From: Bacteroidaceae bacterium
GTDB taxonomy: Bacteria; Bacteroidota; Bacteroidia; Bacteroidales; Bacteroidaceae
Direction of reading: 5' to 3'
Assembly (NCBI GenBank): GCA_017645655.1
Contig: JAGCNZ010000069.1
Location: forward strand, 1 to 45,569
DNA length: 45,569 bases
Both the position numbers and the translations under genes were made by a program. Below the pieces are notes generated by a model. The model saw only the letters and a list, made by a program, of their open reading frames with translations, had not been told where the DNA came from and did not search any database. Each line of letters opens with the position of its first letter. Position 1 is the first letter of the stretch. Positions 9,011 through 44,370 of the stretch are shown here, piece after piece.

Positions 9011-9110
9011 AAACATCACGTGTAATATTTCAAATATCACGTGGAATATTTCAAATATCACGTGGAATAATTGCAAACATCACGTGTGATAATCGAAAAC
9101 ATCACGCGCC
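9011..9110. repeat. ATCACGTG array A
   Basis: CACGTG cores start at 9017, 9038, 9059 and 9081, with a degenerate CACGCG at 9103, giving steps of 21, 21, 22 and 22 bp. Linkers after ATCACGTG are TAATATTTCAAAT, GAATATTTCAAAT, GAATAATTGCAAAC and TGATAATCGAAAAC. The array lies in the 359-bp gap between the lipoprotein and porP. The rest of that gap (8903-9010 and 9111-9261) shows no gene and no recognisable promoter. Confidence 0.9.
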
Positions 9111-9261
9111 AAGTTTCCCGACATCGCCTGACACGCTATCCGCCACAAAAGCGAAAAACGAGTGCCCACTCAGGGAAAAAGCGACAAAAAATGCGCCTTA
9201 GCACGATTTTTCGACACAACAGGACAATAAATTAACAATATACATCGTTATTAAAGACAGG

Positions 9262-10200
9262 ATGAAAAGACTGCTCTGGATAGGTATGCTCATCGTGTCC
9301 CTCACAGTAAGGGCACAATTCGACGCGGCGTTTACCAACACCTGGGCGTTGCAGTCCTACTACAACCCTGCAGCGGCAGGGCTCGACAGCAAGCTGAATG
9401 TCGTGGGCATGTACAGCCTGCAAATGGTCGGCTACCAGGGAGCACCGAAGACAATGGTCATCAACGCAGACATGCCACTGTTCTTCGTCGGACCGAAACA
9501 CGGCGTCGGAGCGGCATTCCTCAACGACGACATCGGCGCCTTCTCCAACAAGAAGATACAACTCCAGTACGCCTTCCACCAGAAATTCCTCGGAGGCAGA
9601 GCCAGCATCGGCATCCGTCCCGCACTCCTCATGGTGGGATTCGACGGCTCGGACCTCGACCTCATCGACTCCGGCGACCCCGCCTTCGCACAAAACGACA
9701 TCAAAGGCAACGCCTTCGACCTCGACATCGGACTGCGCTACACATACAAAAAACTCTGGTACGCCGGCGTCAGCGCAGTACACCTGCTCGGACCCACCAT
9801 CAAAATGGGTGACGACAAGACACACGAAGTCTCGATAGACCCGATGTTCATGGTGCAAGGAGGATACAACCTCGCCTTCCGGCAGCCACAATACAAGCTG
9901 GCAATGGATGCAATGGTACGCTCCGACCTCACCTTCTGGCGAGGCGACATCAACGCCCGACTCATGTACGAAGGCAACAAGCACAAGCTCTACGGAGGCC
10001 TCATGTACAGCCCCACCATCAGCGTCGGACTGCTGCTCGGCTTCGACTTCCACGGCATCAACATCGGATACTCCTACGAAGTCTACACCGGCGGCGTCGG
10101 AGTCCTCAACGGAACACACGAAATACTCATCGGATACCAACACGACCTCGACGTCTTCAAGAAAGGAAAGAACCTCCACAAGAGCGTCCGACTACTCTAA
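9262..10200 (+). CDS. porP: PorP/SprF family T9SS outer membrane protein
   Basis: This 312-residue protein has a cleavable signal peptide (about 19 residues, ending VRAQ), followed by alternating amphipathic strands typical of a beta-barrel outer membrane protein. The FTNTWALQSYYNPAAAG segment near the N-terminus and the repeated G-Y/G-L barrel strands are characteristic of the PorP/SprF family, which work with the type IX secretion machinery in export or anchoring of substrates. It is first in the order porP-gldK-gldL-gldM-gldN, the classical T9SS core operon of Porphyromonas and relatives. The start at 9262 opens a standard signal peptide (MKRLLWIGML). Confidence 0.92.
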   Translation: MKRLLWIGMLIVSLTVRAQFDAAFTNTWALQSYYNPAAAGLDSKLNVVGMYSLQMVGYQGAPKTMVINADMPLFFVGPKHGVGAAFLNDDIGAFSNKKIQLQYAFHQKFLGGRASIGIRPALLMVGFDGSDLDLIDSGDPAFAQNDIKGNAFDLDIGLRYTYKKLWYAGVSAVHLLGPTIKMGDDKTHEVSIDPMFMVQGGYNLAFRQPQYKLAMDAMVRSDLTFWRGDINARLMYEGNKHKLYGGLMYSPTISVGLLLGFDFHGINIGYSYEVYTGGVGVLNGTHEILIGYQHDLDVFKKGKNLHKSVRLL

Positions 10201-10272
10201 ACGACTCAATCATAAAAACCCCATAAAGTCCATTTAACCCATTAACCCCATAAGACCCATTTAATAAACAAT

Positions 10273-11796
10273 ATGAAGACAAAAAGTCTGCTTTTAGTAG
10301 GTGCGGCCATCGGCTGCATGGTCTTGGCCTCCTGCTTCGGATCAAACTCCTCGGCAAACGCCACAGGAGGCGAGGTGACAGGCGCCAAAGGCTCATCCTT
10401 CTCGGAACCGACACCCTTCGGAATGGTTCCCATACACAAAGGCTCACTCAAAATCGGCCTCGAGAACAACGATACGTTGTGGGGCACAGAGTATCCCCTG
10501 CGCGACATCAGCGTGGACGGATTCTGGATGGACCAGCATGAGATAAGCAACGCAAAGTATCGCCAGTTCGTCAACTGGGTGCGAGACAGCATCATCCGAG
10601 AGCGTCTGGCAGACCCCGCATACGGCGGCGACGAAACCTACAAGATTGAAGAAGACAAGGAAGGCAACCCCATCACGCCTCACCTCGACTGGAGCAAAAG
10701 CATCCCCTGGCGCAAAGCCAACGAAGACGAAGACCGCGCAATACAAAGCGTCTACGTCATTCATCCCATCGACGGCACCAAGATGCTCGACGCCAGCCAG
10801 ATGAACTACCGCTACGAAATATACGACTACGTAGCAGCAGCACAGCGTAAATACCGCCTCGACCCCGCTGAGCGCGACCTCAACACAGACCACGCAGTCA
10901 GCAACGAGCAGGTCATCATCAGCAAAGACACAGCCTGGATCGACGACGACGGCAAAATCATACGCCAAACCATCACACGACCCCTGTCAGGACCATGGGA
11001 CTTCCTCAACACATACATTGTTAATATATATCCCGACACAACGTGCTGGGTCAACGACTTCCGCAATGCCGACAACGAACGCTACATGAAGCTCTACTTC
11101 TCGAACCCCGCCTTTGACGACTATCCAGTGGTGGGCGTCTCCTGGGAACAAGCGAATGCATTCTGCGCATGGCGAACCAACTTCCTCATGAAAGGCCTAG
11201 GCGGCTACGCAAAACAGATACAACGCTACCGACTGCCAAGCGAAGTGGAATGGGAATACGCTGCCCGCGGCAAGGAAGGCAACCCCTTCCCCTGGGAAAG
11301 CAAAGAAGTCAAGAGCGACAAAGGCTGCTTCTACGCCAACTTCAAGCCCGACCGCGGCAACTACACGCAAGACGGCTCGCTCATCACAAGCAAGTGCGGC
11401 ATCTTCTCAGCAAACAGCAACGGCCTCTATGACATGGCAGGCAACGTAGCAGAATGGACAAGCACCGTTTATACAGAAGCAGGCGTAGAAAGTATGGCCG
11501 ACATGAACCCGGAACTCTCCTACAATGCCGCCAAAGAAGACCCCTACCGCCTGAAGAAGAAATCAGTTCGTGGCGGCTCATGGAAAGACCCTGAAAGCAT
11601 GATACGAAGTGCCTGGCGCTCCTATGAATATCAGAACCAGCCACGATGCTTCATCGGATTCCGCTGCGTGCGAACCATGGTGAATGACAAGTCTGGCAGC
11701 AACAAGGCAACCGGCAGCGCATCCAAGGGAAACAGCAAAGGCTCAAAGTCAACCTCCACAGGACAGACGCTCAGCACACGCAAGACACGTCGCTAA
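10273..11796 (+). CDS. gldK: T9SS ring lipoprotein GldK (PorK)
   Basis: This 507-residue outer membrane lipoprotein has lipobox LASC (Cys21). It carries a formylglycine-generating-enzyme/sulfatase-modifying fold with FWMDQHEISNAKYRQFVNW early, VSWEQANAFCAWR and YRLPSEVEWEYAARG in the middle, and GLYDMAGNVAEW and SVRGGSW near the end. In T9SS it forms the periplasmic ring with GldN/PorN. The C-terminus is a Ser/Lys/Thr-rich tail (about the last 35 residues) of unknown role. It follows porP after a 72-bp spacer of CCCATTAA-type phrases. Confidence 0.95.
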   Translation: MKTKSLLLVGAAIGCMVLASCFGSNSSANATGGEVTGAKGSSFSEPTPFGMVPIHKGSLKIGLENNDTLWGTEYPLRDISVDGFWMDQHEISNAKYRQFVNWVRDSIIRERLADPAYGGDETYKIEEDKEGNPITPHLDWSKSIPWRKANEDEDRAIQSVYVIHPIDGTKMLDASQMNYRYEIYDYVAAAQRKYRLDPAERDLNTDHAVSNEQVIISKDTAWIDDDGKIIRQTITRPLSGPWDFLNTYIVNIYPDTTCWVNDFRNADNERYMKLYFSNPAFDDYPVVGVSWEQANAFCAWRTNFLMKGLGGYAKQIQRYRLPSEVEWEYAARGKEGNPFPWESKEVKSDKGCFYANFKPDRGNYTQDGSLITSKCGIFSANSNGLYDMAGNVAEWTSTVYTEAGVESMADMNPELSYNAAKEDPYRLKKKSVRGGSWKDPESMIRSAWRSYEYQNQPRCFIGFRCVRTMVNDKSGSNKATGSASKGNSKGSKSTSTGQTLSTRKTRR

Positions 11797-11841
11797 AACA
11801 AATCCCCAACAGCATAACAACAATCGAAAAGATACAAAGAT

Positions 11842-12711
11842 ATGAATCCCATAGCTAAATTGCAAAAGTGGATGGACTCGCCATCCGGTCAAGTATTCAT
11901 GAACTACGCGTACAGCTGGGGCGCTGCCGTCGTAGTGTTAGGTGCATTGTTCAAACTGACGCACATTCCCGGGGCAAACGAGATATTGTTCATCAGTATG
12001 ATTACTGAGGTGTTGGTATTCTTCATCTCGGGTTTCGAGAAGACCTACGACAAAGTGCCTCGCACTGAAGGCGACACAGCAATCGCAGGCGGACAGGCAA
12101 TCGTCGTTGCCGGCGGCACACCTCTTCCCGAGGGTGCTGAAGTGCCTGAAGGCCCCATCGTCATCGGTGGAGGAGGCCCCGCAGTGATTGGCGGTGGCGC
12201 AGTTGCCGCAGCAAGCGGTCCTATCGACCCCGATGCTCTGGCTGCAGGAACTGGCCTCAGTGCCGCAGCAGCCAACCTGGCAGCGGCAGGGCAGGCAGCA
12301 GCACAGGCTCAGCTCGCACTCGAGCAGATACAGAATGGCGGGCCTGCCGTGGATGCAAACCAAATCAAAGCAACCGATCCTGCGTCCATCGAAGAGGCAA
12401 TCACCAACTATGCTGAGGAACTCGCAGAGCTTACGGAAGTATTCTCTCGCGTCAAGAAGCAGGCAGAGCGCATGTCGACCGACAGCGAGGAGATGGAGAA
12501 CCTCAACCGTTCTATCACGGGTATCGCTACGGTTTACGAGCTTCAGTTGCGCAACATCAGCAAACAAGTCAGCACCATCGAGCAGATTGATGAGCAGACG
12601 CGCCGCATGGCACAACAGATCGAGGAACTCAACAACGTCTATGCCCGCATGATTAAGGCGCTTACCGTCAACATGAAGGCTGTGCCCGGCACAGAGGAAA
12701 GCGAGCAATAA
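11842..12711 (+). CDS. gldL: T9SS inner membrane motor protein GldL (PorL)
   Basis: This 289-residue protein has two transmembrane helices in its first 70 residues (AYSWGAAVVVLGALFKL and ILFISMITEVLVFFISGFE), an Ala/Gly/Pro-rich segment at about 80-165, and a C-terminal coiled-coil region. GldL and GldM form the proton-driven inner membrane motor that powers type IX secretion (established for the family). The FEKTYD motif after the second helix is typical of GldL. It is followed by gldM after 60 bp. Confidence 0.95.
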   Translation: MNPIAKLQKWMDSPSGQVFMNYAYSWGAAVVVLGALFKLTHIPGANEILFISMITEVLVFFISGFEKTYDKVPRTEGDTAIAGGQAIVVAGGTPLPEGAEVPEGPIVIGGGGPAVIGGGAVAAASGPIDPDALAAGTGLSAAAANLAAAGQAAAQAQLALEQIQNGGPAVDANQIKATDPASIEEAITNYAEELAELTEVFSRVKKQAERMSTDSEEMENLNRSITGIATVYELQLRNISKQVSTIEQIDEQTRRMAQQIEELNNVYARMIKALTVNMKAVPGTEESEQ

Positions 12712-12771
12712 AGCACTTCCATTCAATCAGAGTATTCAGAGCAATCCGATTATTCAGAAAGCAACAAAGCA

Positions 12772-14337
12772 ATGCCAATAAAGAAGAAAAGGATATCCCC
12801 ACGTCAGAAGATGATTAACCTGATGTACTTGGTCCTTCTGGCCATGCTGGCACTCAATGTGTCGAGCGACGTACTGAATGGTTTCTCTCTTGTGGCAGAC
12901 GGGCTGAAGAAGAGTACCGCAAACGCTACCAAATCCAACCTGGGCATCTATAGCACTTTCGAGCAACAGATGAAGGACAATCCTACGAAGGTAAAGGAAT
13001 GGTATGAGAAGGCACAATACGTGCGTGGCATGAGCGACTCTCTCTACAATCTGGCAGAAGAGTTGAAGGAGGCTATCGTCCGTAAGAGCGATGGCAAAGA
13101 GGCCGACGTGGACAACATAAAGAACCGCGAGGACTTGGAAGCCAGCACGCAGGTAATGCTTGCTCCGGGCACGGGTCGGGGCAAGGAACTCTTCAACGCC
13201 ATCAACAGTTACCGTGAACGCATCATTAAGATGGTGACGGACAAGGAGAAGAAAGATATCATAGCCAGCAACCTTGCTACCGAAGTGCCTGCAAAGGGAA
13301 AGATTCTCGGCAAGAACTGGCAGGAGTACCATTTCGAGAATACGCCGACGGTGGCAGCTGTGACGTTGCTCACAAAGTTGCAGAGCGATGTGCGTGACGC
13401 TGAGGGCGAGGTGCTTCACAACCTTGTGAGCAACGTAGACGTGAAGGACATTCGCGTGAACCAACTGAATGCATATGTCATCCCGAATGCCGTGACCGTC
13501 GTGCAGGGCGGGCGCTTCAGTGCGCAAATCATCATGGCTGCTGTCGATACGACGCGCCGTCCGACCATCTACATCGGCGGACGCGAGATACAAAGCGACA
13601 AGGGTTACTATGAGACGGTGTGCAGCAAGACGGGTGACTTCACTTTCAACGGATACATCGAGATGCTGAACGGTTCCGGAGAGAAAGTTCGACGTGACTT
13701 CTCGCAGAAGTACACGGTTGTCGCTCCGAGTGCAACCGTCAGTGCAGACATCATGAATGTGCTCTATGCGGGCTACGACAACCCGATGAGCGTCTCTGTT
13801 CCTGGCATCCCGAGCAACAAGCTGCGTGTCAGCATGACGGGCGGCAGCTTCGAGCAGAAGGGCGAGGGCAAGTACAATGCTCGCCCGACGACACCTGGCA
13901 CGGAGGCAGTCATCACGGTAGCCGCCGAGAGCGAGGGCCGGATGCAGGAAATGGGTAAGTTCACGTTCCGCGTGCGCAAGTTGCCCGACCCGACTGCCTA
14001 CATCGCCTATGCTGCCGAGGGTGGAGGTGAGAACCACTTCACCAGCGGCAAGCTCTCAAAGCAGATACTGATGGGCACAGAGGGCATCGGCGCAGCCATC
14101 GACGATGGTTTGCTGAACATTGCCTTCCGCGTGAACAGCTTCGAGATAGTCTTCTTCGATGCCATGGGCAATGCCGTGCCCTACCAGAGCAACGGCGCGA
14201 AGTTCTCCGACCAGCAGAAGGCGCAGATGCGCGGCCTGGCCCGCAACAAGCGATTCTACATCCGAGACATTCACGCCACGGGTCCCGACGGCATAGAGCG
14301 CACGCTCAATGGTGCCATGGAGGTAATTATTAACTAA
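12772..14337 (+). CDS. gldM: T9SS motor protein GldM (PorM)
   Basis: This 521-residue protein has a basic N-terminus (MPIKKKRISPRQKM) and one membrane helix with the hallmark NLMYLVLLAMLALNVSSDVLNGF. The rest is periplasmic, built of helical and Ig-like domains that span the periplasm to contact the PorK/N ring. Length and segment order match GldM. It partners with the GldL encoded just upstream and is followed by gldN after 19 bp. Confidence 0.96.
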   Translation: MPIKKKRISPRQKMINLMYLVLLAMLALNVSSDVLNGFSLVADGLKKSTANATKSNLGIYSTFEQQMKDNPTKVKEWYEKAQYVRGMSDSLYNLAEELKEAIVRKSDGKEADVDNIKNREDLEASTQVMLAPGTGRGKELFNAINSYRERIIKMVTDKEKKDIIASNLATEVPAKGKILGKNWQEYHFENTPTVAAVTLLTKLQSDVRDAEGEVLHNLVSNVDVKDIRVNQLNAYVIPNAVTVVQGGRFSAQIIMAAVDTTRRPTIYIGGREIQSDKGYYETVCSKTGDFTFNGYIEMLNGSGEKVRRDFSQKYTVVAPSATVSADIMNVLYAGYDNPMSVSVPGIPSNKLRVSMTGGSFEQKGEGKYNARPTTPGTEAVITVAAESEGRMQEMGKFTFRVRKLPDPTAYIAYAAEGGGENHFTSGKLSKQILMGTEGIGAAIDDGLLNIAFRVNSFEIVFFDAMGNAVPYQSNGAKFSDQQKAQMRGLARNKRFYIRDIHATGPDGIERTLNGAMEVIIN

Positions 14338-14356
14338 ACAAGAAACACAGAAAGAT

Positions 14357-15430
14357 ATGAAGCGCACACTCATTCTCATAACGGTCACGCTCCTCGTGGC
14401 AAGTGCAGTACAGGCACAACCGACGAAGAGCCGTGTCCCTCAGCAGGAAACGACACAGCAGGCTGGCAAAACCGGCACTGCTACCGACCGTGCATCGCTT
14501 ATGTTCCCCACCACGGCAGCCATGCCAGACGATGTGATATGGAAGCGTGACATCTACCGCCAGCTTGACCTGACGAAGGACAAGAACGCGCCGATGTACT
14601 ATCCCGTGGAGCCGATGGGGAAGCAGGTGAACCTCTTCACCTACCTCTTCCGCCTGATTCTCACGGGCCGCATCAACGCCTACACGTATAAGCTGGACGG
14701 CAACGAGTCGTTCGACGAAAAGGACAAACTCCCCGTGAGGGACATGCTGGAACGCTACGGCATATACTACGAGGAGGCCAACGGCAAGATGACAGTGGCC
14801 GACAGCGACGTGCCGAGCGCCGAAGCGACACGCTACTACCTCAAGGAGAGCATTTACATGGACCAGCGCACAGGCACCTTCTCCACTAAGGTGACTGCCC
14901 TCTGCCCCGTACTGATGCGAGGTGCCGACGAGTTCAGCAGCGACGCGACGCCATACCCACTCTTCTGGGTGAAGTACGACGACGTGGCTCCCTGGCTTGC
15001 CAAACTGCCCATGATGCCCAGCGACCTGAACAACGTCACCAACATGACTGCGGATGATTTCTTTGCGATGAACCGCTACGAAGGCAAGATCTACAAGACC
15101 AACAACATGCAGGGCAAGATGCTCCACAATTATTGCGAGACCGACAGCGACATGGTGGCTGAGCAGAAGCGCATCGAGAAGCAGATTGACGACTTCGAGA
15201 AGAACGTCTGGGGCGACGGCTTCCTTGCCGACACCACCAAGAAGGACAGCCTCGAGGCCAAGACGGAAACGGGCGAGAAGAAGTCCTCGAAGGGTCTGCT
15301 CTTCGGACGTAAAGGCTCAAAAGCCAAGGGCAAGGAAGAGTCGGCAAGCGGCGAGACTGCCAAGAAGGAGAAGAGCGAAGCACCTGCCAGCGCTTCTGCC
15401 CGCGTCAGCGCACGTCGCCAAAGGAGGTAA
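14357..15430 (+). CDS. gldN: T9SS ring protein GldN (PorN)
   Basis: This 357-residue protein has an N-terminal signal peptide ending VQAQ. The family core runs from about residue 55 to 290, beginning near DDVIWKRDIYRQLDLTKDKNAPMYYPVEP, which is diagnostic for GldN. It binds the lipoprotein GldK to form the periplasmic ring. The last 70 or so residues are a low-complexity Lys/Ser/Ala/Glu-rich tail ending in an Arg-rich ARVSARRQRR, longer than the core fold needs. It ends the T9SS operon; an intrinsic terminator follows 46 bp later. Confidence 0.94.
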   Translation: MKRTLILITVTLLVASAVQAQPTKSRVPQQETTQQAGKTGTATDRASLMFPTTAAMPDDVIWKRDIYRQLDLTKDKNAPMYYPVEPMGKQVNLFTYLFRLILTGRINAYTYKLDGNESFDEKDKLPVRDMLERYGIYYEEANGKMTVADSDVPSAEATRYYLKESIYMDQRTGTFSTKVTALCPVLMRGADEFSSDATPYPLFWVKYDDVAPWLAKLPMMPSDLNNVTNMTADDFFAMNRYEGKIYKTNNMQGKMLHNYCETDSDMVAEQKRIEKQIDDFEKNVWGDGFLADTTKKDSLEAKTETGEKKSSKGLLFGRKGSKAKGKEESASGETAKKEKSEAPASASARVSARRQRR

Positions 15431-15476
15431 GACAACAAGGCTGACCTGCCGGAGCGGAAATCCGGCCACACAGATA

Positions 15477-15505
15477 GAGGAGGGACACCGAGTCCCTCCT
15501 CTTTT
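15477..15505 (+). terminator. Terminator of the T9SS operon
   Basis: A perfect 10-bp stem, GAGGAGGGAC (15477-15486) with GTCCCTCCTC (15492-15501), has a 5-base loop (ACCGA) and is followed by TTTT. It lies 46 bp after the gldN stop codon. Confidence 0.88.
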
Positions 15506-15614
15506 CGTATCCCTCCCCCCTTGCCAACCTGCCCGCGAACGGAAAGCCGCACAGAACGCCACCGGAGCGAACGCGGCACAGTCTTCCACACGACTCAGCA
15601 GGCAGTGCCACAAG

Positions 15615-15760
15615 ACACGGCACGTGATGCCTGAAATTGTCACACGTGATGTTTGCAATTATTACACGTAATATTTGAAATATTACACGTGATAATTTCA
15701 TTTTACCCACGTGATGTTTGCAACTTACCCACGTGATGTTTGCAATCATCGCCTGTCGCA
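15615..15760. repeat. ATCACGTG array B, inverted orientation
   Basis: Cores start at 15621, 15643, 15665 (CACGTA), 15686, 15708 and 15730, with steps of 22, 22, 21, 22 and 22 bp. Read on the minus strand, the linkers are GGTAAGTTGCAAAC, GGTAAAATGAAATT, TAATATTTCAAAT, TAATAATTGCAAAC and TGACAATTTCAGGC. The array lies between two convergent transcription units, each with its own terminator. The rest of 15506-15820 holds no recognisable gene. Confidence 0.9.
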
Positions 15761-15820
15761 TTGATGAACATCGCGCCCGATGACTGCCTGCACGACATGC
15801 CTGGGCAGGAGTCAGAGCAC

Positions 15821-15853
15821 AAAAAAAGAGGAACGCACCGCAGCACGTTCCTC
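15821..15853 (-). terminator. Terminator of the 15902-17401 gene
   Basis: On the minus strand GAGGAACG pairs with CGTTCCTC (15846-15853 with 15828-15835) and is followed by seven T residues (the A-run at 15821-15827). It lies about 50 bp after the stop of the upstream minus-strand gene. Confidence 0.85.
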
Positions 15854-15901: not shown

Positions 15902-17401
15902 TTACTTGACGGCAACCTTCTTGCCATTGATGATGTAGAGACCCTTGGCAGGCTGGCTTACGCGACGGCCTTGGAGGTCGAAGATAGCGCTCTTGCCGTC
16001 GTTGACCTTCACGCTTGTGATAGCAGTGGTGTTGTCAATGAGACCGAAGCGAACAGTTGCTGCGTCGCCAACCTCTTCAGGATTCAACTGCAGGTATGCA
16101 GACTTGGCAGGAAGCTGCACGCCATCGCCAGTAACGGCTGAGAAGGCATTAGCCTCGTCGGGGTTGAGAACGTAGTTAGCGCTTGTGTTGGTGGGATCGC
16201 TGGGTGCTATAACAGCAGCCTCAAGAACTGCAACAAAGAGATTGCCTTCTACAGCGGGTGTTTCCTCATCTGCGAAGAAAGGAATCATGTAGGGCTCACC
16301 CTGGGCAGGAACCTCAGCCACGAGCATCACGCCAGTACCTGCGGGCACAACCGTAACAGGCTCCAGCATAGCATAGTTGACAGCCTCGATGTAGTCAACA
16401 GCAATGTAAGCCTTCACTGGGCTGTCGGTAAAGTCGAGATCCTTGTCGCTGCTGAACATGGTGTACTGCTCTGTGGGAGCAAAGAACTCAACAGTAGCTT
16501 CCCATTGTGCCACACATTCGGTGTCCTCAGCAGGCATCACTTCAGGAACTGAAGGCTCCCAACCAATAAATACATAACCTTCCTTAGTCGGATTCTCGGG
16601 AGCCTGAACAGGTGTGTTGTAGTCCTGAGTAATGGGATCAACGACTACATCGTCAAAGCCAGTAACGAAGGTGATAGTGTACTGGTTGATAGACCACTGG
16701 GCAACACAGGTCATGTCCTGTTCGGGCATTACCTCGGGAACAGCAGGCTCCCAGCCCATGAACGTGTAACCAGCCTTCTCGGGGTCAGCAGGAGCTGTAA
16801 CTGCCTCACCGGGAACAGCAGAGATAGGCTCAACAATTACGTCGTCGAAACCAGTCTCGAAGGTAATGGTCACAGGCTCAACAACTGCAGCAGGCTCGAC
16901 AGTCCACTCGTACTCCTTAGTGCCGCTATAGTTGTGAATGTCACTAGAAGGACCTTCCAGCGTGATGTTGCTGACAATCAGGTTGTACTGGCCAGCCTCT
17001 ACGGTGCTGGCAATGTTCACTGTAACCACAGCAACAACGCCAGTGTTGCCAGTCAGAGCAATGCCCTGAGCACCGGAGCATGAGAATGTAACCACGTTGC
17101 CTGCATCGTTCACGGTCGTGCTGATTACAGGATTGTAAGCATCGGGATAACGACCTTCCTCGCCAGTAGCGGGCTCAACGCTCACGAAGGTAACACCCTC
17201 GGGAAGCTGCAGCGTGCAATTCCACATTGCAATCTCGGTATAGTTGTACATGTCCAGATACAACTCAGCAGTAGCGCCAGCCTGTCCGGCCTCGCCCCAT
17301 ACCTCGATTCTGTACCTCTCGTTCATCGTGTTCTCTGTTTCAGCTGCCATACCACACAGGCAAAGCATAAACATAGAAATCAGTGTGAAAAATTTTTTCA
17401 T
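15902..17401 (-). CDS. Secreted InlB B-repeat protein with T9SS sorting tail
   Basis: This 499-residue protein has a signal peptide (MKKFFTLISMFMLCLCGMAA). An N-terminal domain at about 28-165 resembles a cohesin-like or dockerin-partner beta fold (AELYLDMYNYTEIAMWNCTLQLPEGVTFVSV). Two tandem InlB-type (Flg_new/Listeria-Bacteroides) repeats follow, each with the signature GYTFMGWEPAVPEVMP or GYVFIGWEPSVPEVMP and a closing CVAQW. The C-terminus, SAIFDLQGRRVSQPAKGLYI and onward to NGKKVAVK, is a type IX sorting tail. It is therefore a predicted surface or secreted substrate of the T9SS encoded next door. Ligand or function is unknown. Confidence 0.8.
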   Translation of the reverse strand: MKKFFTLISMFMLCLCGMAAETENTMNERYRIEVWGEAGQAGATAELYLDMYNYTEIAMWNCTLQLPEGVTFVSVEPATGEEGRYPDAYNPVISTTVNDAGNVVTFSCSGAQGIALTGNTGVVAVVTVNIASTVEAGQYNLIVSNITLEGPSSDIHNYSGTKEYEWTVEPAAVVEPVTITFETGFDDVIVEPISAVPGEAVTAPADPEKAGYTFMGWEPAVPEVMPEQDMTCVAQWSINQYTITFVTGFDDVVVDPITQDYNTPVQAPENPTKEGYVFIGWEPSVPEVMPAEDTECVAQWEATVEFFAPTEQYTMFSSDKDLDFTDSPVKAYIAVDYIEAVNYAMLEPVTVVPAGTGVMLVAEVPAQGEPYMIPFFADEETPAVEGNLFVAVLEAAVIAPSDPTNTSANYVLNPDEANAFSAVTGDGVQLPAKSAYLQLNPEEVGDAATVRFGLIDNTTAITSVKVNDGKSAIFDLQGRRVSQPAKGLYIINGKKVAVK

Positions 17402-19708: not shown

Positions 19709-19818
19709 TCGACTCAGTCCTCCGAATTTTTTTTATAGGAGGACTCGAGTCCTACCGTGGTGGGACTGCAGTCCTTCCGTGGGAAAACTCGAGTCCTACC
19801 ATGGTGGGACTGGCGGCG
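19709..19818. repeat. Array of GGACTnnAGTCC palindromes, copy 2 (inverted)
   Basis: Palindromes start at 19709 (ending GACTCAGTCC), 19741 (GGACTCGAGTCC), 19763 (GGACTGCAGTCC), 19785 (AAACTCGAGTCC) and 19807 (half-site), with steps of 32, 22, 22 and 22 bp. Its left end (GACTCAGTCCTCCGAA) is the reverse complement of the right end of the array at 1199-1373, so the two are homologous elements in opposite orientation. It lies between yfhO and groES. Confidence 0.85.
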
Positions 19819-19843
19819 CAACGAGGAATACGACTCGATGCGA

Positions 19844-23048: not shown

Positions 23049-23130
23049 ACACGGCACGTGATAATTGCAATTTACACACGTTAAAATTGAAATATCACGT
23101 GTAATATTTACAATTTACCCACGTGATGTT
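23049..23130. repeat. ATCACGTG array C, inverted and degenerate
   Basis: Cores start at 23055, 23077 (CACGTT), 23096 and 23120, with steps of 22, 19 and 24 bp. The minus-strand end, ATCACGTGCCGTGTTTTG, matches the end of array B (ATCACGTGCCGTGTCTTG), so the arrays share a boundary as well as units. It lies between folK and rpsO, next to GTGAAAA phrase repeats (22950-22976). No gene is seen in 22875-23132. Confidence 0.82.
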
Positions 23131-37211: not shown

Positions 37212-37219
37212 CAAACGTA
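37212..37219 (-). promoter_or_regulatory. Candidate -7 element for M60 paralogue A
   Basis: The minus strand reads TACGTTTG, matching TAnnTTTG, 45 bp before the start codon and at the edge of array D. No good -33 element lies at 19 bp. Confidence 0.4.
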
Positions 37220-37334
37220 GCGTGGGACGATTGAATTTATCACGTGGGTAAAATGAAATTATCACGTGGAATATTTAAAATATCACGTGGGTAAAATGGA
37301 TTTATCACGTGGGTCGTTTGCAATCATCACACGC
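37219..37334. repeat. ATCACGTG array D
   Basis: Cores start at 37241, 37263, 37284 and 37306, with degenerate ends at 37219 (AGCGTG) and 37328 (CACACG); steps are 22, 22, 21, 22 and 22 bp. Linkers are GGTAAAATGAAATT, GAATATTTAAAAT, GGTAAAATGGATTT and GGTCGTTTGCAATC. It separates M60 paralogues A and B. Confidence 0.92.
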
Positions 37335-37356: not shown

Positions 37357-40300
37357 TTACTTGCTCATCACGAACTTCTTGCCGTTCCTGATGTAAATGT
37401 TGCCCGGCTTCATCTCGGTCACCTTGCGGCCCATCAGGTCGTAGGTGGCGTCGCTGAAGACTGGGGCGACGGTATTGAATTCCTCTGCCTGAACAGCCTC
37501 TATGCCGTCCACTATTTCGTCGGTCAGGTCGCCTACGATGGTGCCGAACTCAGCCCAGCGAGAATTCTCGTAGGCCTCGACAGCACTTGGATAGACGTGG
37601 ATGATAGGATGGCTCGAGAAGAGATAGTTGCTGACGCTCGGCGGAGTGAGCGGCGTGACGTATGCGTGCTTGACGGGAGAGCTGTAGAAGACGCCCTGAT
37701 CCATCGAAGTGACCTTCTGGCCGACATAGACCGTCGAAAGGTTATTGCAGTAGGCGAAGGCATCGCCACCTACCGACTTCACCTGGTCGGGAATTACAAT
37801 CGACGTGATGCCGCAGCTGGAGAAGGCGGTTCCGCCTATCGAAGTGAGGTTGCGCGGCAGAATCATGGAGACAAGCTTCTTGGCATTCTGGAAAAGTCCG
37901 GAAGGTACAGAGCTGGTTCTGGCTCGTTCGAGGTCAATGGCCTGAAGGTTCTCATTGTTGACGAGCTGCTTCATATAGTTGAAGTCCGTAGTGCTGATCG
38001 GACCGCTTACAATAAGCTTGATGACCTGGTCGTTCTTCAACTCTCTCTTGAGCGTTCCGGACGAAGCCAGCTCGACGTACTCTGTGCCACTGCCGGCCCG
38101 CGTCACCTCGCGGTACGTGCCGTCGGCATCGAAGGAATAAATCGTGAAGTTGCCTCCCACACTTGTCGGGATGCAGACATTCTTCGAGTTGGAAGCAAAC
38201 ACGATGGCGTCGTCGGCATCGAGCATGAAGAAGCCCAAGCCGCCTGTCCCTTCCATCGCATAGAGAGAATCAGAGCGGTAATAAACATAGTCCGAAGGCT
38301 CACAACCGCCTTCCAGATACGACGTGAACTGGCCAAGGTCGCCGCACTGGCCTACCTGGTCCGAGCCGTTGCGCTTCTTGCCTGCCGTCTGCAGGAATCC
38401 CGTCGAGAGAACATAGTCAGCGCGGTCTTCCACGAAGATTATCTCACGATTCTTGACGGGATACTTTGCAATCTGGTTCTTGGTGGATTTGATGCCGGCG
38501 TTCGTTACGGCAATAGAATGGTTGCCATAGTCCTCAATGTTGCTTCCCACCTTAATGGGTTCGAAGAATCCCCAGATGGTAAAGAAGTCGGTCAAGTCCT
38601 CCTGCGCCACTTCGCAAACCTTGCGGACGAACTTCAGGCCGCCGTTGTTGTTGTTCGAACTGTTGTATAGCGTCAGCGGGTCATTGCGCAGAGCCTTGAA
38701 GAGGTCAGGGTAGAAGGAGGTGTTCTTCTGCGCCAGGTGATAGTAGAGATAGAGGTCCCAATACATACGCAGACGGCTGTTCACGTCCCTGTAGTAGAAA
38801 GGCTCGCGGCGCGCAAACTCGTTCATGACGTCAGTAAGCGTCGAGCCGCCCGAGGTGTTGAGGCCATCGAGATAGCGGACGAGATTCGAGAAGACGTTGT
38901 TCGACGCCTCCGTGCAGCCCTCCACATTGATGGCACGCTGGTTGTTGTGGCCGCACTCGTGACCGGCGCACCAGTCGTCCATGTTCTTGTTCGTCGCATC
39001 AAGACAGTTCTTTATGCAGTCGAGACCATTATAGGAAGTCCTGTAAGCTGTAGAGTTTGCATAGCCGGCATCCTCCACCTCGCCCTCGATGGCAAAGTTC
39101 GGGTTGTTGTAGTAGATGGGATAGATGGCCTCGCCGCCCGTCAGGTACCAGGGGTAGCCGGCCTTCTTGCCCGTTGCAACCTCCTCGGTCATGCCCATCA
39201 AGTTCTTCTCCCACACGGCCACGCTGTCGAACCACGCGATGCTCTTGTCCATCTTTGTGGCAGTCGAGAAGACTTGCTTGTAAGAGTTAGTCTTGAGATG
39301 GTAGAGTGAGTGTGCGCCTCTTACGGTGAAACGGTTCAGCTTGGCAGCATTAAGAATCTTCTTGTAGTCGGTAGAAGTGTGACGGTTGACATCATAATAG
39401 CCATTCACCGCTCCGCCCTCGATGTGTATCTTCATGTCTGGCCACTGGTCGAGCGTCTTCTGATTATTCTGCGTGCTGGCCGTATAGACAACATAGTAAA
39501 GGGCATTCTTCGTTCCGTCGATGATGTTGAGTCCCTTCACGAGTTTCGTCCCGGTCTTGGCGTTCGTGATGAGCTGGTTCTCCACGCAGCCGGCAAGGTA
39601 CAAAGTAGCGTCGCTCGGCACGTCTTCGCCTACGAAGACATAAATCTCGTCGCCATCGTTTTCGGCATAGATACCGGTCGGGTTGCCCATGTAGGAGCCG
39701 CCGCTTGCCATCATCTTGTCGTTCCAGTAGTTTGCGTCGCTGTATGCCTTGTAGTCGTGAATGCGGAAGTCCTGTTCGTAGGCCGCCCAGGTTCCGTTTT
39801 TCACCTTGAGGGCTATGGTTATCATCAGTTCCGGCATACCCACCTCAGTCATGGCTGCGGTCAGTTCCTCGTCGCTCATCGCCTGATATTCGGGTTTAAG
39901 CTGAGTGCCGGCAACGTCCTCGAAGAAGTTGCCATACATTGTCTTGGCGATGTCGCCGGGTTCGGCTTCCATCGGATAGGTGTTCTCCAAGCCGCCATAG
40001 ATGGTGCCATAGTTCTTCCAGCCCGATGCCTGATAGTCCGACAAAGCCTCCGTATAGACATATATCTTGGGGCTTGACGAAAAGAGGTAGGCTGGCGTGC
40101 TTGCTGGCGTGAGAGGCTTGACATAAGCATTCTTTACGTTCGAGCTGTAGAAGACGCCTTGGTTCAGTTGGTTCACCTTCTTTCCGATGACGACAGTCTC
40201 CAGCGAACTGCAATAGGCAAAGGCATCGCCGCCGAGCTTCGTCACACTGCCCGGGATGTCGATTGCCTTGAGTCCTGACCTCGCGAAGGCATTGGTCAGG

Positions 40301-40665
40301 ATGGCAGTCACGTTAGTCGGCAGAAGCATCTGCTGCAACCTTGAACACTCGTAGAACATCTTCTCACCAATGACGTTGTCCGTCGTCGTATAACTCTCCG
40401 TGTATGCTTCGCCGCCGCTTACGATGCTGACGCCCGACCAGTCGAGGCTCGTCACGGTACCTGCCTGGACGAGTTCGCGAATGTACTTGATGTCGGTGCC
40501 ATTTATCTTGCCCGTCACCTTAAGCTCCGGGTCGGTTTGTGTCAAGAGGGAGGACAGCGTGCCTGCCGTCTCGACGTTTACTTCTGTCACAGCCCAGACG
40601 CTTGCCTGGACAAGACACATCACGATGGCTGCCGAAAGCCTTCGTATTCCTTTCATGCTTTTCAT
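37357..40665 (-). CDS. Secreted BspA-LRR / M60 peptidase with T9SS tail, paralogue B
   Basis: This 1,102-residue protein has the same architecture as its neighbours: signal peptide (MKSMKGIRRLSAAIVMCLV), LRR block (about 95-225), M60 region with HECGH at 569-573 and conserved ExxxE downstream (NVEGCTEASNN), a second LRR block (about 900-1040) and a T9SS tail (YDLMGRKV...GNIYIRNGKKFVMSK). It lies 50 bp downstream of paralogue C on the same strand and is probably cotranscribed with it. The start could also be the ATG three codons later. It is closer to C than to A in the N-terminal LRR. Confidence 0.88.
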   Translation of the reverse strand: MKSMKGIRRLSAAIVMCLVQASVWAVTEVNVETAGTLSSLLTQTDPELKVTGKINGTDIKYIRELVQAGTVTSLDWSGVSIVSGGEAYTESYTTTDNVIGEKMFYECSRLQQMLLPTNVTAILTNAFARSGLKAIDIPGSVTKLGGDAFAYCSSLETVVIGKKVNQLNQGVFYSSNVKNAYVKPLTPASTPAYLFSSSPKIYVYTEALSDYQASGWKNYGTIYGGLENTYPMEAEPGDIAKTMYGNFFEDVAGTQLKPEYQAMSDEELTAAMTEVGMPELMITIALKVKNGTWAAYEQDFRIHDYKAYSDANYWNDKMMASGGSYMGNPTGIYAENDGDEIYVFVGEDVPSDATLYLAGCVENQLITNAKTGTKLVKGLNIIDGTKNALYYVVYTASTQNNQKTLDQWPDMKIHIEGGAVNGYYDVNRHTSTDYKKILNAAKLNRFTVRGAHSLYHLKTNSYKQVFSTATKMDKSIAWFDSVAVWEKNLMGMTEEVATGKKAGYPWYLTGGEAIYPIYYNNPNFAIEGEVEDAGYANSTAYRTSYNGLDCIKNCLDATNKNMDDWCAGHECGHNNQRAINVEGCTEASNNVFSNLVRYLDGLNTSGGSTLTDVMNEFARREPFYYRDVNSRLRMYWDLYLYYHLAQKNTSFYPDLFKALRNDPLTLYNSSNNNNGGLKFVRKVCEVAQEDLTDFFTIWGFFEPIKVGSNIEDYGNHSIAVTNAGIKSTKNQIAKYPVKNREIIFVEDRADYVLSTGFLQTAGKKRNGSDQVGQCGDLGQFTSYLEGGCEPSDYVYYRSDSLYAMEGTGGLGFFMLDADDAIVFASNSKNVCIPTSVGGNFTIYSFDADGTYREVTRAGSGTEYVELASSGTLKRELKNDQVIKLIVSGPISTTDFNYMKQLVNNENLQAIDLERARTSSVPSGLFQNAKKLVSMILPRNLTSIGGTAFSSCGITSIVIPDQVKSVGGDAFAYCNNLSTVYVGQKVTSMDQGVFYSSPVKHAYVTPLTPPSVSNYLFSSHPIIHVYPSAVEAYENSRWAEFGTIVGDLTDEIVDGIEAVQAEEFNTVAPVFSDATYDLMGRKVTEMKPGNIYIRNGKKFVMSK

Positions 40666-40715
40666 TTTGTGTTTCTTTATTTAATAGTTGTAGTTATTTC
40701 TTTTCACGCAGTTTG

Positions 40716-43700
40716 TCATTTCACCATAAACGTCTTTCCGTTCCTGATGTAGATGCATCCTGGCTTCAGGTTCGTGACGCGACGTCCCATTAGGTCATAA
40801 ACCTCATTGGACTTTGAACTATGGACACCAACCTTTTCCACTTCGGGAAGCAGTTCGACGCCATCAACGATGTCGTCCGTCAAGTCGCCCACTATCGTAC
40901 CATACTCGGCCCAAGACGATGCCTGATAGGCTGCGACGACACTCGGATAGACGTGAATCAGGGGATTGCTCGAGAGGAGATAGCTCGAGACGCTGGGCGG
41001 GGTGAGGGGAGCGACATATATATCCTTGACGTTTGAATCATAGAAAGCGCCTTTGGATATCGAGGTGACCTTCTTGCCGACGAGTACAGTCGTCAAGTCG
41101 CTGCAGTATGCAAAGGCATCTTCGCCTATCGAGGTCACCTTGTCGGGAATGGCAATCGACTTGAGCCCCGAGCCAGAGAAGGCGTTTGTGCCTATGGAGG
41201 TGATGTCTTGAGGCAGTCGCATTGCGATGAGCTTCCTGAAGTCCTGGAACGCGTAGGGGCCCATGACGTTCTTCGTAGTCTTGTAGCTTTGGTAGTAGGA
41301 ATATGTGTTGTTGGTAATGATTTGTGCCTCGTCGAGGTCGATGGCCTGGAGGTGATGGTTGGCGATGAGTTCGCGCAAGTACTTGATGTCCTTGCCGTGA
41401 ATCTTTCCTTTGACGATGAGTTTGATGACGTCCTCGTTCTGGAGTGTTGTCTGAAGCCGTCCTGCTGCATCGAGCTCCACGGTTTCCGTGCCGCTGCCTG
41501 CTCTTGCGACCTCGTGCAAGGTGCCGTCGGCGTCGACTGCATAAATGCTGAAGTCACGCCCGATGCTTGTCGGGATGCATACGTCAAAAGCGTTGGAGGC
41601 ATATCTGATGGTGCCGTCTTCGTCGAGCATGAGGAAGCCGACGCCTCCTGTGCCTACCATGGAATAGAGAGAGTCCACGCTATAATAGACATAGTCGGCG
41701 GGAGCGGATGCATTGGGAAGGTAGCTGGTGAACTGCCCCACGTCGCCGCACTGCCCTACTGCTTCGCCCTTGCGGTATTCGCGATTCGTGCCGTTTCTGG
41801 GGATGAAGTTTGTCGGGGGAACATGCTCCACACGGTCCTCGATGAAGATTATCTCGCGGTTCTTCTTTTCGTACTGAGCGATACTTCTCTTCGTGCTGTT
41901 GATTTCAGAGAGTCTGTTCGTGACGTAATGGTCGCCGTAACATTCGAGGTAGCGGTTCGTCGCAGGCTCAAAGAAGCCATAGACCGTGAAGAAGTCGGTG
42001 AGGTCTTCCTGTGCCACCTCGCATACCTTGCGGACGAACTTCAGTCCGGACTTGCTTGTGGAGGTTCCGTAGGGCTGTATTTTGTCGGCTCGCAACGCTT
42101 TGAAGAGTTCGGGGTAGAACGATGTGTTCTTCTGTGCCTGATGGTAATAGAGGTAGAGGGAGTAGTACATACGGATGAATCCCTTGTCGGCGCCACGCCA
42201 GTAGAAAGGCACATTATGTGCGAACTCCTGCATAGTGACGCTGAGGGGGTTGCCCATGGAGGATTTGTGCCCCATAAAGAAGCGGCAATAGTTCGAGAAA
42301 AGATCGTTGCTGCCCTCAGTCGTGCCTTCCAACATGATAGGTGATTGCAGCTGATGTCCCAGCTCGTGCGCGGTTCCGCTCTCGTCGTAACTTGCCACAT
42401 ATGGGTTGAGGAATGACTTGGAGGCATCCAGCGAGATGTGTATGCCGAACTCCGTGGAATGGGCGACAGAGCCGGGAGAGTCGTTGTCGACGTACGTTGG
42501 GTTGTTGAAGTAGCCTGGATAGAAGGCATCGCCACCTGTCAGGTAGTAGGGCGCGCCTGCTTTCTCGCCGTTTGCCACGGCTTCGCTGATGCCGAAGAGG
42601 TCCTTTTCCCAAACGGAAAGACTGTCCAGGCATTCGACTGCCTTAGCGATTTTGGAGGAATAGGTTTCCCTGAGGCGCGAGGTCCTGATGTTCATGACGG
42701 AGTGTTTTCCCTTTGCCACAAAGGTGGTATATGTAGCGGCGTTCAGGAGTTTCTTGTAGTCGGCGTCGGTATGTCTGGCTGCGTCGAAGTAGCCTTCCAG
42801 CTTGCCGCCTTCGATGTGTATCTTGATGTCGGGCCATTCGCTGACGCGTTTGGTCAGGGATTTCGTATCGACGGTATAGAGGATGTAGTAGTACTTGTCG
42901 GCATCCGCGTCGACGATGTTGAGTCCTTTCTTCAGCTTATGTCCTGCTTTGCCGGTGGTGAACATGTCGTCCACGCCGATGCCTGCGATGTAGAGGGTCG
43001 CGTCGGCAGGGACATCGTCGTCCACGAAGACATAGAGTGGTTCCTGATACGACTGGGCATAGATGCCGGTGGGGTTGCCCATGTAGGACGCGCAGCGTGC
43101 CCACAGCTTGTCGTTCCATGACTTGGCATCGCTGTAGGGTTGGTAGCTGTGGATGCGGAACTCCTGTTCGTAGTTTGCCCACGTGCCATTCTTCACCTTG
43201 AGGGCGATGCTCAGCATGTAGTCTGGCATGCCTGCCTCGGCGAAGGCCGCCGCCAGTTCCTCGTCGCTCATCGAGCCGTATTCGGCTTTGAGCTGGGTGC
43301 ATGCGGCGTCCTGGAAGAAGTTGCTGCACAGGTCGCTCACGATGTCGTCCTCGCCCGGCTCTTGCGGATAGAAGTTCTCCAACGTGCCGTAGAGGGTGCC
43401 GTATTCGTTCCAGCCTACGTCTTTGTAGTCCTGCAAGGCGTCCGAATAGACATAAATCTTTGGGGTCGAGGAGAAGAGATAGGAGGGCGGAGCAGGCGGT
43501 GTGATGGGCTTCACGTAGGCTTTTGTGACGGCTGAGCCGTAGAAGGAGCCTTTGCTGAGCTGGTTCACCCTCTGTCCGATGACGACGGTTGACAGGGAGT
43601 TGCAATAGGCGAAGGCATCTTCGCCGATGGTGCGGACGCTGCTCGGGATGTCAATCGTCGAGAGGCGTGTGCGGGCGAAGGCATTCTTCAGGATGGAGGT

Positions 43701-44063
43701 CACAGTGGTGGGCAGGAGCATCTGCTGCAGGTTCGAGCATTCGTAGAACATCTTTTCGCCTACGACGTTGTCCTGCGTGGTGTAACTCTCGAAGTATGCC
43801 TGACCGCCGCTCACTATGCGGACGCCCGACCAGTCGAGCTTTTTCACCGTGCCTGCCGTGACGAGCTGGCGGATGTATTTGATGTCGGAGCCGTTGATGA
43901 CTCCAGTCACCTTCAGTTCCTGGTCGGTGCTGGTCAGCAGGGACTGCAACGTGCCGGCTGTCTCGACGTTGATTTCCGTCAGAGCCCAAGCGCTGCCCTG
44001 CATCAGACAAAACAAGGCTGCGACAATCAGCCTATGCAAAATTGTATGGCAATTCCTATACAT
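40716..44063 (-). CDS. Secreted BspA-LRR / M60 peptidase with T9SS tail, paralogue C
   Basis: This protein of about 1,115 residues has the same plan as A and B: signal peptide (MYRNCHTILHRLIVAALFCL), N-terminal LRR, M60 region, second LRR and T9SS tail (YDLMGRRV...GCIYIRNGKTFMVK). The zinc site is HELGH at 566-570, closer to the classical M60 HExGH form than the HECGH of A and B. The sequence before the site (YADNDSPG-like loops) is the most divergent part, suggesting a changed substrate pocket. The frame extends 50 codons upstream, but the promoter at 44093-44123 lies in that stretch, so I start at 44063. Confidence 0.88.
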   Translation of the reverse strand: MYRNCHTILHRLIVAALFCLMQGSAWALTEINVETAGTLQSLLTSTDQELKVTGVINGSDIKYIRQLVTAGTVKKLDWSGVRIVSGGQAYFESYTTQDNVVGEKMFYECSNLQQMLLPTTVTSILKNAFARTRLSTIDIPSSVRTIGEDAFAYCNSLSTVVIGQRVNQLSKGSFYGSAVTKAYVKPITPPAPPSYLFSSTPKIYVYSDALQDYKDVGWNEYGTLYGTLENFYPQEPGEDDIVSDLCSNFFQDAACTQLKAEYGSMSDEELAAAFAEAGMPDYMLSIALKVKNGTWANYEQEFRIHSYQPYSDAKSWNDKLWARCASYMGNPTGIYAQSYQEPLYVFVDDDVPADATLYIAGIGVDDMFTTGKAGHKLKKGLNIVDADADKYYYILYTVDTKSLTKRVSEWPDIKIHIEGGKLEGYFDAARHTDADYKKLLNAATYTTFVAKGKHSVMNIRTSRLRETYSSKIAKAVECLDSLSVWEKDLFGISEAVANGEKAGAPYYLTGGDAFYPGYFNNPTYVDNDSPGSVAHSTEFGIHISLDASKSFLNPYVASYDESGTAHELGHQLQSPIMLEGTTEGSNDLFSNYCRFFMGHKSSMGNPLSVTMQEFAHNVPFYWRGADKGFIRMYYSLYLYYHQAQKNTSFYPELFKALRADKIQPYGTSTSKSGLKFVRKVCEVAQEDLTDFFTVYGFFEPATNRYLECYGDHYVTNRLSEINSTKRSIAQYEKKNREIIFIEDRVEHVPPTNFIPRNGTNREYRKGEAVGQCGDVGQFTSYLPNASAPADYVYYSVDSLYSMVGTGGVGFLMLDEDGTIRYASNAFDVCIPTSIGRDFSIYAVDADGTLHEVARAGSGTETVELDAAGRLQTTLQNEDVIKLIVKGKIHGKDIKYLRELIANHHLQAIDLDEAQIITNNTYSYYQSYKTTKNVMGPYAFQDFRKLIAMRLPQDITSIGTNAFSGSGLKSIAIPDKVTSIGEDAFAYCSDLTTVLVGKKVTSISKGAFYDSNVKDIYVAPLTPPSVSSYLLSSNPLIHVYPSVVAAYQASSWAEYGTIVGDLTDDIVDGVELLPEVEKVGVHSSKSNEVYDLMGRRVTNLKPGCIYIRNGKTFMVK

Positions 44064-44092
44064 AACGTTGTCAGTTTGTAGTTTATCGCACG

Positions 44093-44123
44093 CAAATTTA
44101 CCTTTTTCTTTCCATTCCTGCAA
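44093..44123 (-). promoter_or_regulatory. Promoter of the M60 C-B genes
   Basis: On the minus strand TTGC (complement of 44120-44123) and TAAATTTG (complement of 44093-44100) are separated by exactly 19 bp, 30 bp before the start codon of paralogue C. Confidence 0.78.
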
Positions 44124-44244
44124 GAGAAACGCGGAAAAAGAGAGCGAAAAGAGGGGAAAAGTCACGCAGCGTGCCGGCTTAGGGGACCAGCGGCGTTGAG
44201 CACCAAACCACAAGGCGTCGGCAAAAAGGCTGTGGGGTATCGGA

Positions 44245-44370
44245 AAACATCACGTGGGTAAAATGAAATTATCACGTGGAATATTTCAAATATCACGTGG
44301 GTAAAATCAATTTATCACGTGGGTAAAATGAAAACATCACGTGGGAAGTCGAAAAAGCTAACACGCCTCG
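44245..44370. repeat. ATCACGTG array E
   Basis: Cores start at 44251, 44273, 44294, 44316 and 44338, with a degenerate CACGCC at 44362; steps are 22, 21, 22, 22 and 24 bp. Linkers are GGTAAAATGAAATT, GAATATTTCAAAT, GGTAAAATCAATTT, GGTAAAATGAAAAC and GGAAGTCGAAAAAG. It lies in the 537-bp divergent gap between paralogue C and the partial gene at 44601; no other gene is visible there. Confidence 0.92.

Follow-up and report, generated by a model that had tools for sequence, protein, structure and literature searches.

Dispersed intergenic arrays with a shared 22-bp step and differing unit sequences in a Bacteroidaceae genome and its relatives

Introduction

Repetitive extragenic palindromic (REP) sequences and bacterial interspersed mosaic elements (BIMEs) are described as dispersed intergenic palindromic units that exceed 100 copies per genome, form species-specific mosaics and are driven by RAYT transposases (PMC2817692). 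Here we analysed a 45,569-nt stretch of a Bacteroidaceae bacterium (assembly GCA_017645655.1, contig JAGCNZ010000069.1, positions 1 to 45,569; hereafter the window), whose intergenic regions harbour five mosaic arrays of ATCACGTG units, together with further DNA of the same genome (the own genome) and of its relatives, whose arrays use other sequences at the same 22-bp step. Like REP/BIME, these are high-copy intergenic palindromic units in mosaics. They differ from REP/BIME in that the units run head to tail at a 22-bp step, that unrelated unit sequences have this step and the symmetry in common, and that they show no association with RAYT presence. Moreover, unit orientation does not alternate: ATCACGTG units of both orientations were found in only 5 of 48 own CACGTG clusters, the other clusters having one orientation or none, although dyads blur orientation in other families. 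GTAG/CGTC tags are also said to be a REP feature.

BrickBuilt of Porphyromonas gingivalis is an intergenic element of miniature inverted-repeat transposable element (MITE) or minisatellite type, built from tandem 23-nt units without spacers, present in 19 copies in one strain and bounded by a leader and a tail with insertion sequence (IS)-like terminal inverted repeats (PMC4596501). The likeness lies in the Bacteroidales host, the intergenic location and the tandem units, whereas BrickBuilt has a 23-nt period and one sequence and the arrays here have a 22-bp period, hundreds of pairs, many sequences and dyad units. Identity with the P. gingivalis element was rejected on the period and the units, yet to our knowledge BrickBuilt is the closest analogue in Bacteroidales. 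Pneumococcal BOX elements are reportedly modular intergenic mosaics with a variable number of an inner module, a construction that the present arrays resemble; we know of no helical step or species turnover for them. Plasmid iterons are direct repeats at about two helical turns to which an initiator protein binds cooperatively, but there is one such array per replicon, as against hundreds along the chromosome here. No description of such an array class was found in the open-licence literature.

Results

Phased arrays in the own genome

The five arrays proposed in a first-pass annotation of the window were all recovered, and all of them lie between genes called with a simple codon-based gene caller. 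Array A (9011-9110, + strand) has four ATCACGTG units at 9015, 9036, 9057 and 9079 and occupies the gap between tandem genes at 8210-8902 and 9262-10200. Array B (15615-15760, − strand), with five exact units, separates convergent genes at 14357-15430 (+) and 15902-17368 (−). Array C (23049-23130) is of mixed orientation, with exact ATCACGTG at 23055 (−), 23094 (+) and 23120 (−) plus degenerate units, in a tandem gap. Array D (37219-37334, + strand; four units) also lies in a tandem gap, with both genes on the − strand, and array E (44245-44370, + strand; five units) in a divergent gap whose called genes lie 247 and 257 bp away. Thus the inversion earlier ascribed to both B and C holds for B, all of whose units are on the − strand, but not for C. 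The array cores are as first delimited, but weaker in-phase units continue beyond the quoted ends, for example on either side of the four units of array A.

In the window, ATCACGTG occurs in 21 copies against 1.74 expected (largest shuffle 5), and CACGTG alone is mildly enriched (25 versus a shuffle mean of 14.9 and a maximum of 23), while neighbouring CACGTG pairs 20-24 bp apart number 14 versus a mean of 0.025 and a maximum of 1 among 200 dinucleotide shuffles. Because CACGTG alone is only mildly enriched, it is the spacing, not the count, that constitutes the signal. In the own genome (2.74 Mb in 130 contigs; 84% complete), 394 ATCACGTG pairs at 20-22 bp (202+192) were counted, with 0 for the reversed-pattern control; the units are therefore abundant beyond the window, and the shuffles and this control together rule out a chance origin.

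The phasing persisted once many copies were counted. In 392 kb of own sequence (the window plus 20 stretches picked for known arrays), CACGTG steps below 40 bp were 22 (87), 21 (30), 20 (2), 24 (2) and 31 bp (1), and 14 of the 22 longer steps below 120 bp were 43-44 bp. Steps of both 21 and 22 bp had been noted at the outset, and both are present. However, among 34 own arrays with three or more exact units, the linkers of all 29 21-bp steps are AT-rich and 27 of the 29 have the form (T/G)AATATTTNAAAT, and the remaining 61 direct steps all equal 22 bp; the 21-bp step is thus a linker lineage rather than loose phasing, because its linkers share this form. Outside the exact core, the best match to a 10-mer fell from 7.2 on one side and 5.8 on the other in the first outer unit to 4.06 in the fourth, against a background of 3.97. 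This gradient of conservation from centre to edge proves little, because the arrays were selected by their core.

Three own arrays (L047 4044-4114, L047 14404-14474 and L055 6596-6732) have a common TTGGATGCTTTAGCACCAAGT-type element inside or after them, an inverted repeat by eye that is accompanied by TTTTAGTGCGCAGAC in two of the three. In another own array (L045 3084-3308), a CCCCCTAACCCCCTTTAGGGGG sequence lies inside three CACGTG linkers.

The same step with other sequences in relatives

The relatives are uncultured bacteria, nearly all metagenome-assembled genomes (MAGs) as far as named, many incomplete and mostly from the ruminant gut. Stretches of the own genome, G127, G076, G018 and part of G027 were chosen for known arrays, so that their array densities are too high; for the remaining stretches of the genus, sampling was blind (contig 1 or 2). 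Among 60 other genomes, exact ATCACGTG pairs occur only in G018 and G027, and the arrays of relatives use other sequences at the 22-bp step. CACGTG, first taken as the defining word, is thus one species' variant of a wider array system; a single mobile element defined by ATCACGTG was likewise rejected, since relatives carry other sequences.

In 40 stretches from 25 species of the genus (720 kb), noncoding DNA had its best lag most often at 22 (18 regions) and next at 9 (4 regions), with none at lags 20, 21 or 23 outside crude open reading frame (ORF) masks; inside the masks, lags 22, 21, 14 and 24 had 13, 12, 9 and 7 regions, respectively. By reading, at least one lag-22 region is present in 15 of the 25 genus species, some of them weak and with G018 and G027 sampled for known arrays. 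Among 37 close named loci (72% or more protein identity with a gene of the window; no coding filter), lags 22, 18, 44, 21, 23 and 20 gave 31, 15, 7, 6, 2 and 1 regions, respectively. Three regions at lag 22 were found in 40 more distant loci, and 20 order-level stretches (236 kb) had, outside the masks, one region at lag 21, one at 22 and two at 23.

Chains of at least three CRYG at exactly 22 bp gave a similar picture: 400 kb of G127 contained 75, 373 kb of G076 contained 36 and own DNA 100 (the last inflated, as CACGTG contains two CRYG), versus 0-7 at seven other steps in these three sets. In 35 other close loci, 21 such chains were found at 22 bp versus 0-4 at other steps; the mostly blind genus set was weaker (25 versus 0-14, the 14 being at step 21).

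The unit families differ among species. In G127, the closest relative with the window region (85% DNA identity), ACATGTAT pairs at array spacing gave 89 matches (some places counted on both strands; control 1), and the CCGCACGCGG and AACGTGTTAA families form separate arrays. Matches to such pairs numbered 40 in G076, where the linker differs (TGCAATTGCA type), three in G027 and one in G000. Amplified inner units sit in phase inside the arrays: CACGTG with AT-rich linkers in the own genome, ACATGTAT in G127 and ACATGTA with TGCAATTGCA in G076. Inner clusters mostly hold three inner units in G127 (32 clusters) and G076 (27 clusters), with inner-unit steps of 22 (57) and 44 bp (2) in the former and of 22 bp in 55 of 55 cases in the latter. 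As read from the clusters, most inner cassettes have inverted ends (GTTCRTTATA...TATAAYGAAC in G127; GTTTGCA...TGCAAAC in G076). Those of G127 nevertheless sit in phase inside other units, their block being flanked in phase by AAC...GTT units (dyad 0.67 on the left and 0.61 on the right).

A signature is shared beyond these families, namely AAC-N4-CRYG-N4-GTT (AACNNNNCRYGNNNNGTT) plus a second CRYG 22 bp on. The own genome has 256 matches to it and G127 has 514, with counting on both strands possible for one unit or place; of 139 genomes of the genus, 27 have 10-514 matches and 55 have any, with the reversed control at most 3. In contrast, among 148 genomes from elsewhere in the order, 10 have a single match and the rest none, with the control reaching 5. 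In G127, 62 of the 65 AACN4CRYGN4GTT sites have another core in 22-phase, and the profile of 226 units outside the ACATGT class reads caAACtccgCacGcgGaGTTtg, in which CRYG, as the anchor of unit profiles, is fixed by construction. The most widely shared unit comprises 22 bp (8+2+8+4): a half-site AACNNNNC, a 2-bp RY centre that is often AC or GT, an inverted half-site GNNNNGTT and a 4-bp spacer. Signature-free arrays also occur, for example in G022 (L115), which has an array and no signature match.

Several further tandem arrays were seen in the sampled stretches. In G003 (L100 13665-13885), successive palindromes differ (TCGACTATTCGA, TTGACTAGTCAA, TCGAATAGTCGA) at 22-bp steps, with a fold z of −2.9; its best-scoring segment failed the dyad test (48 of 200). 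That test was passed (6 of 200) by a lag-22 array of CGTTCTTGCAAGAACCAAGCAA type (L088 11567-11713) in an order-level genome that does not belong to the genus, a hint that the 22-bp geometry may extend beyond one genus. Two tandem arrays of TCTCACAAGTTTGTCAGTTTTTA type (L095 8200-8332 and 9600-9788), from a different family within the order, have a 23-bp period, which is the period length of BrickBuilt. Short-period microsatellites of relatives, such as ACCATTTAGCTATTT or 7-bp TGAAGAA (L073 15184-15366 and L072 4823-4897), are unrelated to these arrays and can mimic lag 21 or 22.

Positions kept while units change

The orthologous gap of array A was traced by its flanking genes, both of which were located in 18 of the 37 close loci. 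In 13 of these 18 relatives the gap has a called lag-22/44 array (threshold 24 of 44), which makes 14 with L194 read by eye, and no relative's array has the units of array A. The units are alike in near sisters (L191/L195/L196; L193/L221; L199/L202) and otherwise differ widely, for example CTCCGTGGAG, CCTCACGAGG and AACTAGGCGTGTCTAGTT. The gap is without an array in L200, L203, L207 and L259, and no clean empty site was seen in the comparison of these gaps. L193 and L221 had raised the suspicion that two close species differ by a genome-wide core switch, but this was not supported, as both genomes carry both variants.

In G127, a 22-bp ACATGTAT array lies in the gap that follows the left gene of array B (L119; the right neighbour was identified by eye), and another ACATGTAT array in the orthologous gap of array C (L157, around 12770). 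Of 37 own arrays tested, six have both flanking genes adjacent in the sampled G127 DNA; a 22-bp array is present in all six gaps, and none was shown with CACGTG units.

Placement relative to genes

Array-bearing gaps are common in the sampled DNA: among gaps of at least 150 bp, 44 of 84 (own), 55 of 93 (G127) and 48 of 102 (G076) hold an array (47-59%; the stretches were mostly picked for arrays). A large share of the longer intergenic gaps sampled thus carries the same geometric device. By gap type, the proportion in the own genome, G127 and G076 was, respectively, 10/11, 11/16 and 10/19 for convergent gaps, 27/53, 33/54 and 30/59 for tandem gaps, and 7/20, 11/23 and 8/24 for divergent gaps. 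Within tandem gaps, the median distance from the upstream stop was 26, 11.5 and 52 bp and that to the next start 145, 108.5 and 182 bp; 7 of 56, 4 of 76 and 2 of 53 array regions had no assigned gap. Array strand relative to tandem genes showed no preferred orientation (15 same, 13 opposite). The intergenic location in convergent, divergent and tandem contexts, already proposed from the window, is therefore confirmed by the gene calls, and with placement spread across gap types the arrays were rejected as promoters of one gene type.

A terminator role was considered for array B only. Its gap has two intrinsic-terminator-like hairpins, each with an 11-bp stem and a T-run, at 15476-15502 (+ strand; 3′ of the left gene) and 15828-15853 (− strand; 3′ of the right gene). 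Both of these strong terminators lie outside the array, where only a weak 5-bp stem overlaps one unit, and the role was rejected.

Symmetry, half-sites and folding

Complementarity 3-9 bp from the CRYG axis was 0.546 and 0.462 in two sets, of which 26 of 38 and 17 of 34 arrays were usable, the other 12 and 17 having been dropped for want of two in-phase CRYG; for comparison, all CRYG sites taken together gave 0.249 and slid axes 0.19-0.32. In a column-permutation dyad test, 17 of 34 genus arrays reached p 0.05. The dyad alone cannot separate a hairpin from a protein dimer, because both predict it, but they differ in the covariation of the two halves.

Within a family, the motif halves vary almost independently. 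For 55 distinct G127 outer units out of 64 (TTATA starts, CATG at the centre and duplicates were dropped), 101 pairs were found versus 93 shuffled, a count matched or exceeded by 229 of 2000 shuffles, so that column composition suffices. Perfect palindromes were not enriched in G073 (2 versus 2.2; n=14), G065 (0 versus 0.5; n=16), G076 (1 versus 0.3; n=10, P=0.27) or G000 (1 versus 5.1; n=40), in a test with 10 to 79 units per genome and low power in three of the five genomes (10-16 units).

All eight strands of arrays A, B, D and E fold better than the shuffle mean (z −1.31 to −5.64), the weakest being equalled by 23 of 200 shuffles, and the flanks of array D pair into a single long hairpin (z −5.1 and −5.6). 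Good folding is expected of tandem palindromes whatever their purpose. Rfam gave 0 matches at gathering score in the window, and a known Rfam RNA was thus rejected there.

Discussion

The reading that we tentatively favour is that the arrays may be operator-like, bound side by side by a putative dimeric nucleoid-type protein. The five window arrays belong to a clade-wide class of dispersed intergenic arrays, in which such a DNA-binding protein, or a small set of related proteins that differ in specificity, would occupy each unit; neighbouring dimers on 18-bp sites two helical turns apart would lie on the same face and could form a short cooperative filament per gap. This filament would mark or mechanically separate adjacent transcription units, with a bias towards 3′ ends over the regions ahead of starts. 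In-phase gene conversion from one array to another would gradually replace the units (concerted evolution), with selection keeping the period and symmetry and not the exact letters. A dimeric protein is favoured because the halves vary almost independently within a family; together with the lack of strand preference, this leaves cooperative binding or nucleoid organisation, as suggested in the first-pass annotation, the best mechanism, with the binding itself inferred. If a protein does bind the arrays, they would represent a new abundant chromosome-organising system in Bacteroidales, and spacing and symmetry that are kept while letters turn over offer a natural experiment on whether a DNA-binding array needs geometry or sequence.

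Several observations weigh against this protein-based reading. The sharing of six of six positions has a chance of ~4% given the sampled G127 gap density (55/93). Only 7 of 30 own arrays reach p 0.05 in the dyad test, own CACGTG units are poorly symmetric beyond 6 bp, the outer positions of G076 are near background symmetry (0.30), and the AAC and GTT flanks are much weaker in 84 units of other close loci. Several unit families coexist in G127, which is difficult to reconcile with a single sequence-specific protein. Over all its units, G127 has 8 perfect palindromes versus 2.8 (P=0.003). Single pairs covary in G127 (pair 3, p=0.0003), G000 (pair 1, p=0.005) and G076 (pair 4, p=0.04), as do two of four pairs at the AACN4CRYGN4GTT sites of G127 (p about 0.01) and one pair in own middle units (13 of 2000 shuffles). 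With one unit per array and families mixed, pairing at distances 3, 4 and 5 was 0.68, 0.74 and 0.66 versus 0.40, 0.31 and 0.30 in G127, and 0.60, 0.39 and 0.64 versus 0.27, 0.26 and 0.29 in other close loci, while in G076 it exceeded the shuffles at several distances. For xACGTGTy units pooled over species, 105, 137 and 111 of 168 were paired versus 61, 120 and 73, above all of 5000 shuffles at the three tested pairs. The covariation comparison of RNA structure with protein dimer thus gave a mixed outcome. The covariation between families may be explained by the mixing of families with different dimer specificities.

A bolder extension of the protein-based reading, which we regard as doubtful, would make the arrays a bacterial counterpart of satellite DNA: a chromosome-wide system defined by architecture (22-bp step and dyad) rather than sequence, whose unit is replaced genome-wide between sister species while positions persist. 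Its array-binding protein would co-evolve rapidly and organise the chromosome at the boundaries of genes.

A somewhat unlikely alternative is that the arrays are selfish, function-free palindromic repeats, REP/BIME- or MITE-like, that spread by a transposase or ectopic gene conversion and survive where they are least harmful, downstream of genes and at a distance from promoters. The species-specific cassettes of nearly fixed form, mostly with three inner units in G127 and G076, fit this reading, as does the higher frequency of arrays near 3′ ends than near starts, and the REP literature reports species-specific, RAYT-driven palindromic mosaics (PMC2817692). Yet RAYT (PF01797) had no match in the own genome (84% complete). 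Of 15 signature-rich relatives, 9 also lacked a match, among them the three with the highest signature counts, and three had a full-length one (the MAGs being incomplete), while 4 of 5 signature-free relatives had a match, two of them full-length. RAYT presence thus does not track the arrays, and RAYT-driven REPs were rejected. Moreover, selfish spread alone leaves unexplained both the 22-bp step of unrelated units and the kept gap position with a changed unit.

Unlikely, too, is an RNA or cruciform element, in which an ~18-nt hairpin plus a 4-nt spacer would be selected for pairing in transcripts (3′ end protection, processing or a small RNA) or would be extruded as DNA. The small repeat-derived RNA raised at first as a possibility draws on the folding of arrays A, B, D and E and of a second dyad family (z −4.8 and −5.5), and this reading retains some weight because the halves covary between families and partly in G127, with single pairs in G000 and G076. 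It is weakened by the independent halves, perfect palindromes not being enriched in 4 of 5 genomes and symmetric column composition accounting for the pairing of G127 outer units, and by the absence of an orientation preference relative to tandem genes. In addition, array B lies between two ordinary terminators, the window has no Rfam match, and tandem palindromes fold well in any case.

Pure sequence mechanics, in which palindromes would duplicate and self-correct by replication slippage and template switching at a mechanical 22 bp with no binding or benefit, would fit the head-to-tail units, the longer steps of mostly 43-44 bp, the similarity within arrays and the covariation between families, but is quite improbable, because template-switch correction should yield an excess of perfect palindromes that 4 of 5 genomes lack, and because the AAC/CRYG/GTT signature with variable letters between points to positional constraint. 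If no protein binds, selfish or mechanical processes could hold a 22-bp period across unrelated sequences.

A second dyad family

A second 22-bp dyad family, AGT-N4/5-CCRYGG-N4/5-ACT, occurs with two or three units per place. No unit of it was found in the samples of G127 and G076 or in the 40 genus samples. In 392 kb of own DNA, it has 14 units at five places, three of them outside the window (L048 18428, L054 13760 and L055 14242), and 12 units were found in four close relatives (L193, L194, L195 and L221). In the window, one array (1184-1299; fold z −4.8) consists of 22-bp dyad units like AGTCCCACCATGGGAGGACT plus 2 bp, and the other (19724-19823; fold z −5.5) of three units like CGAGTCCTACCATGGTGGGACT.

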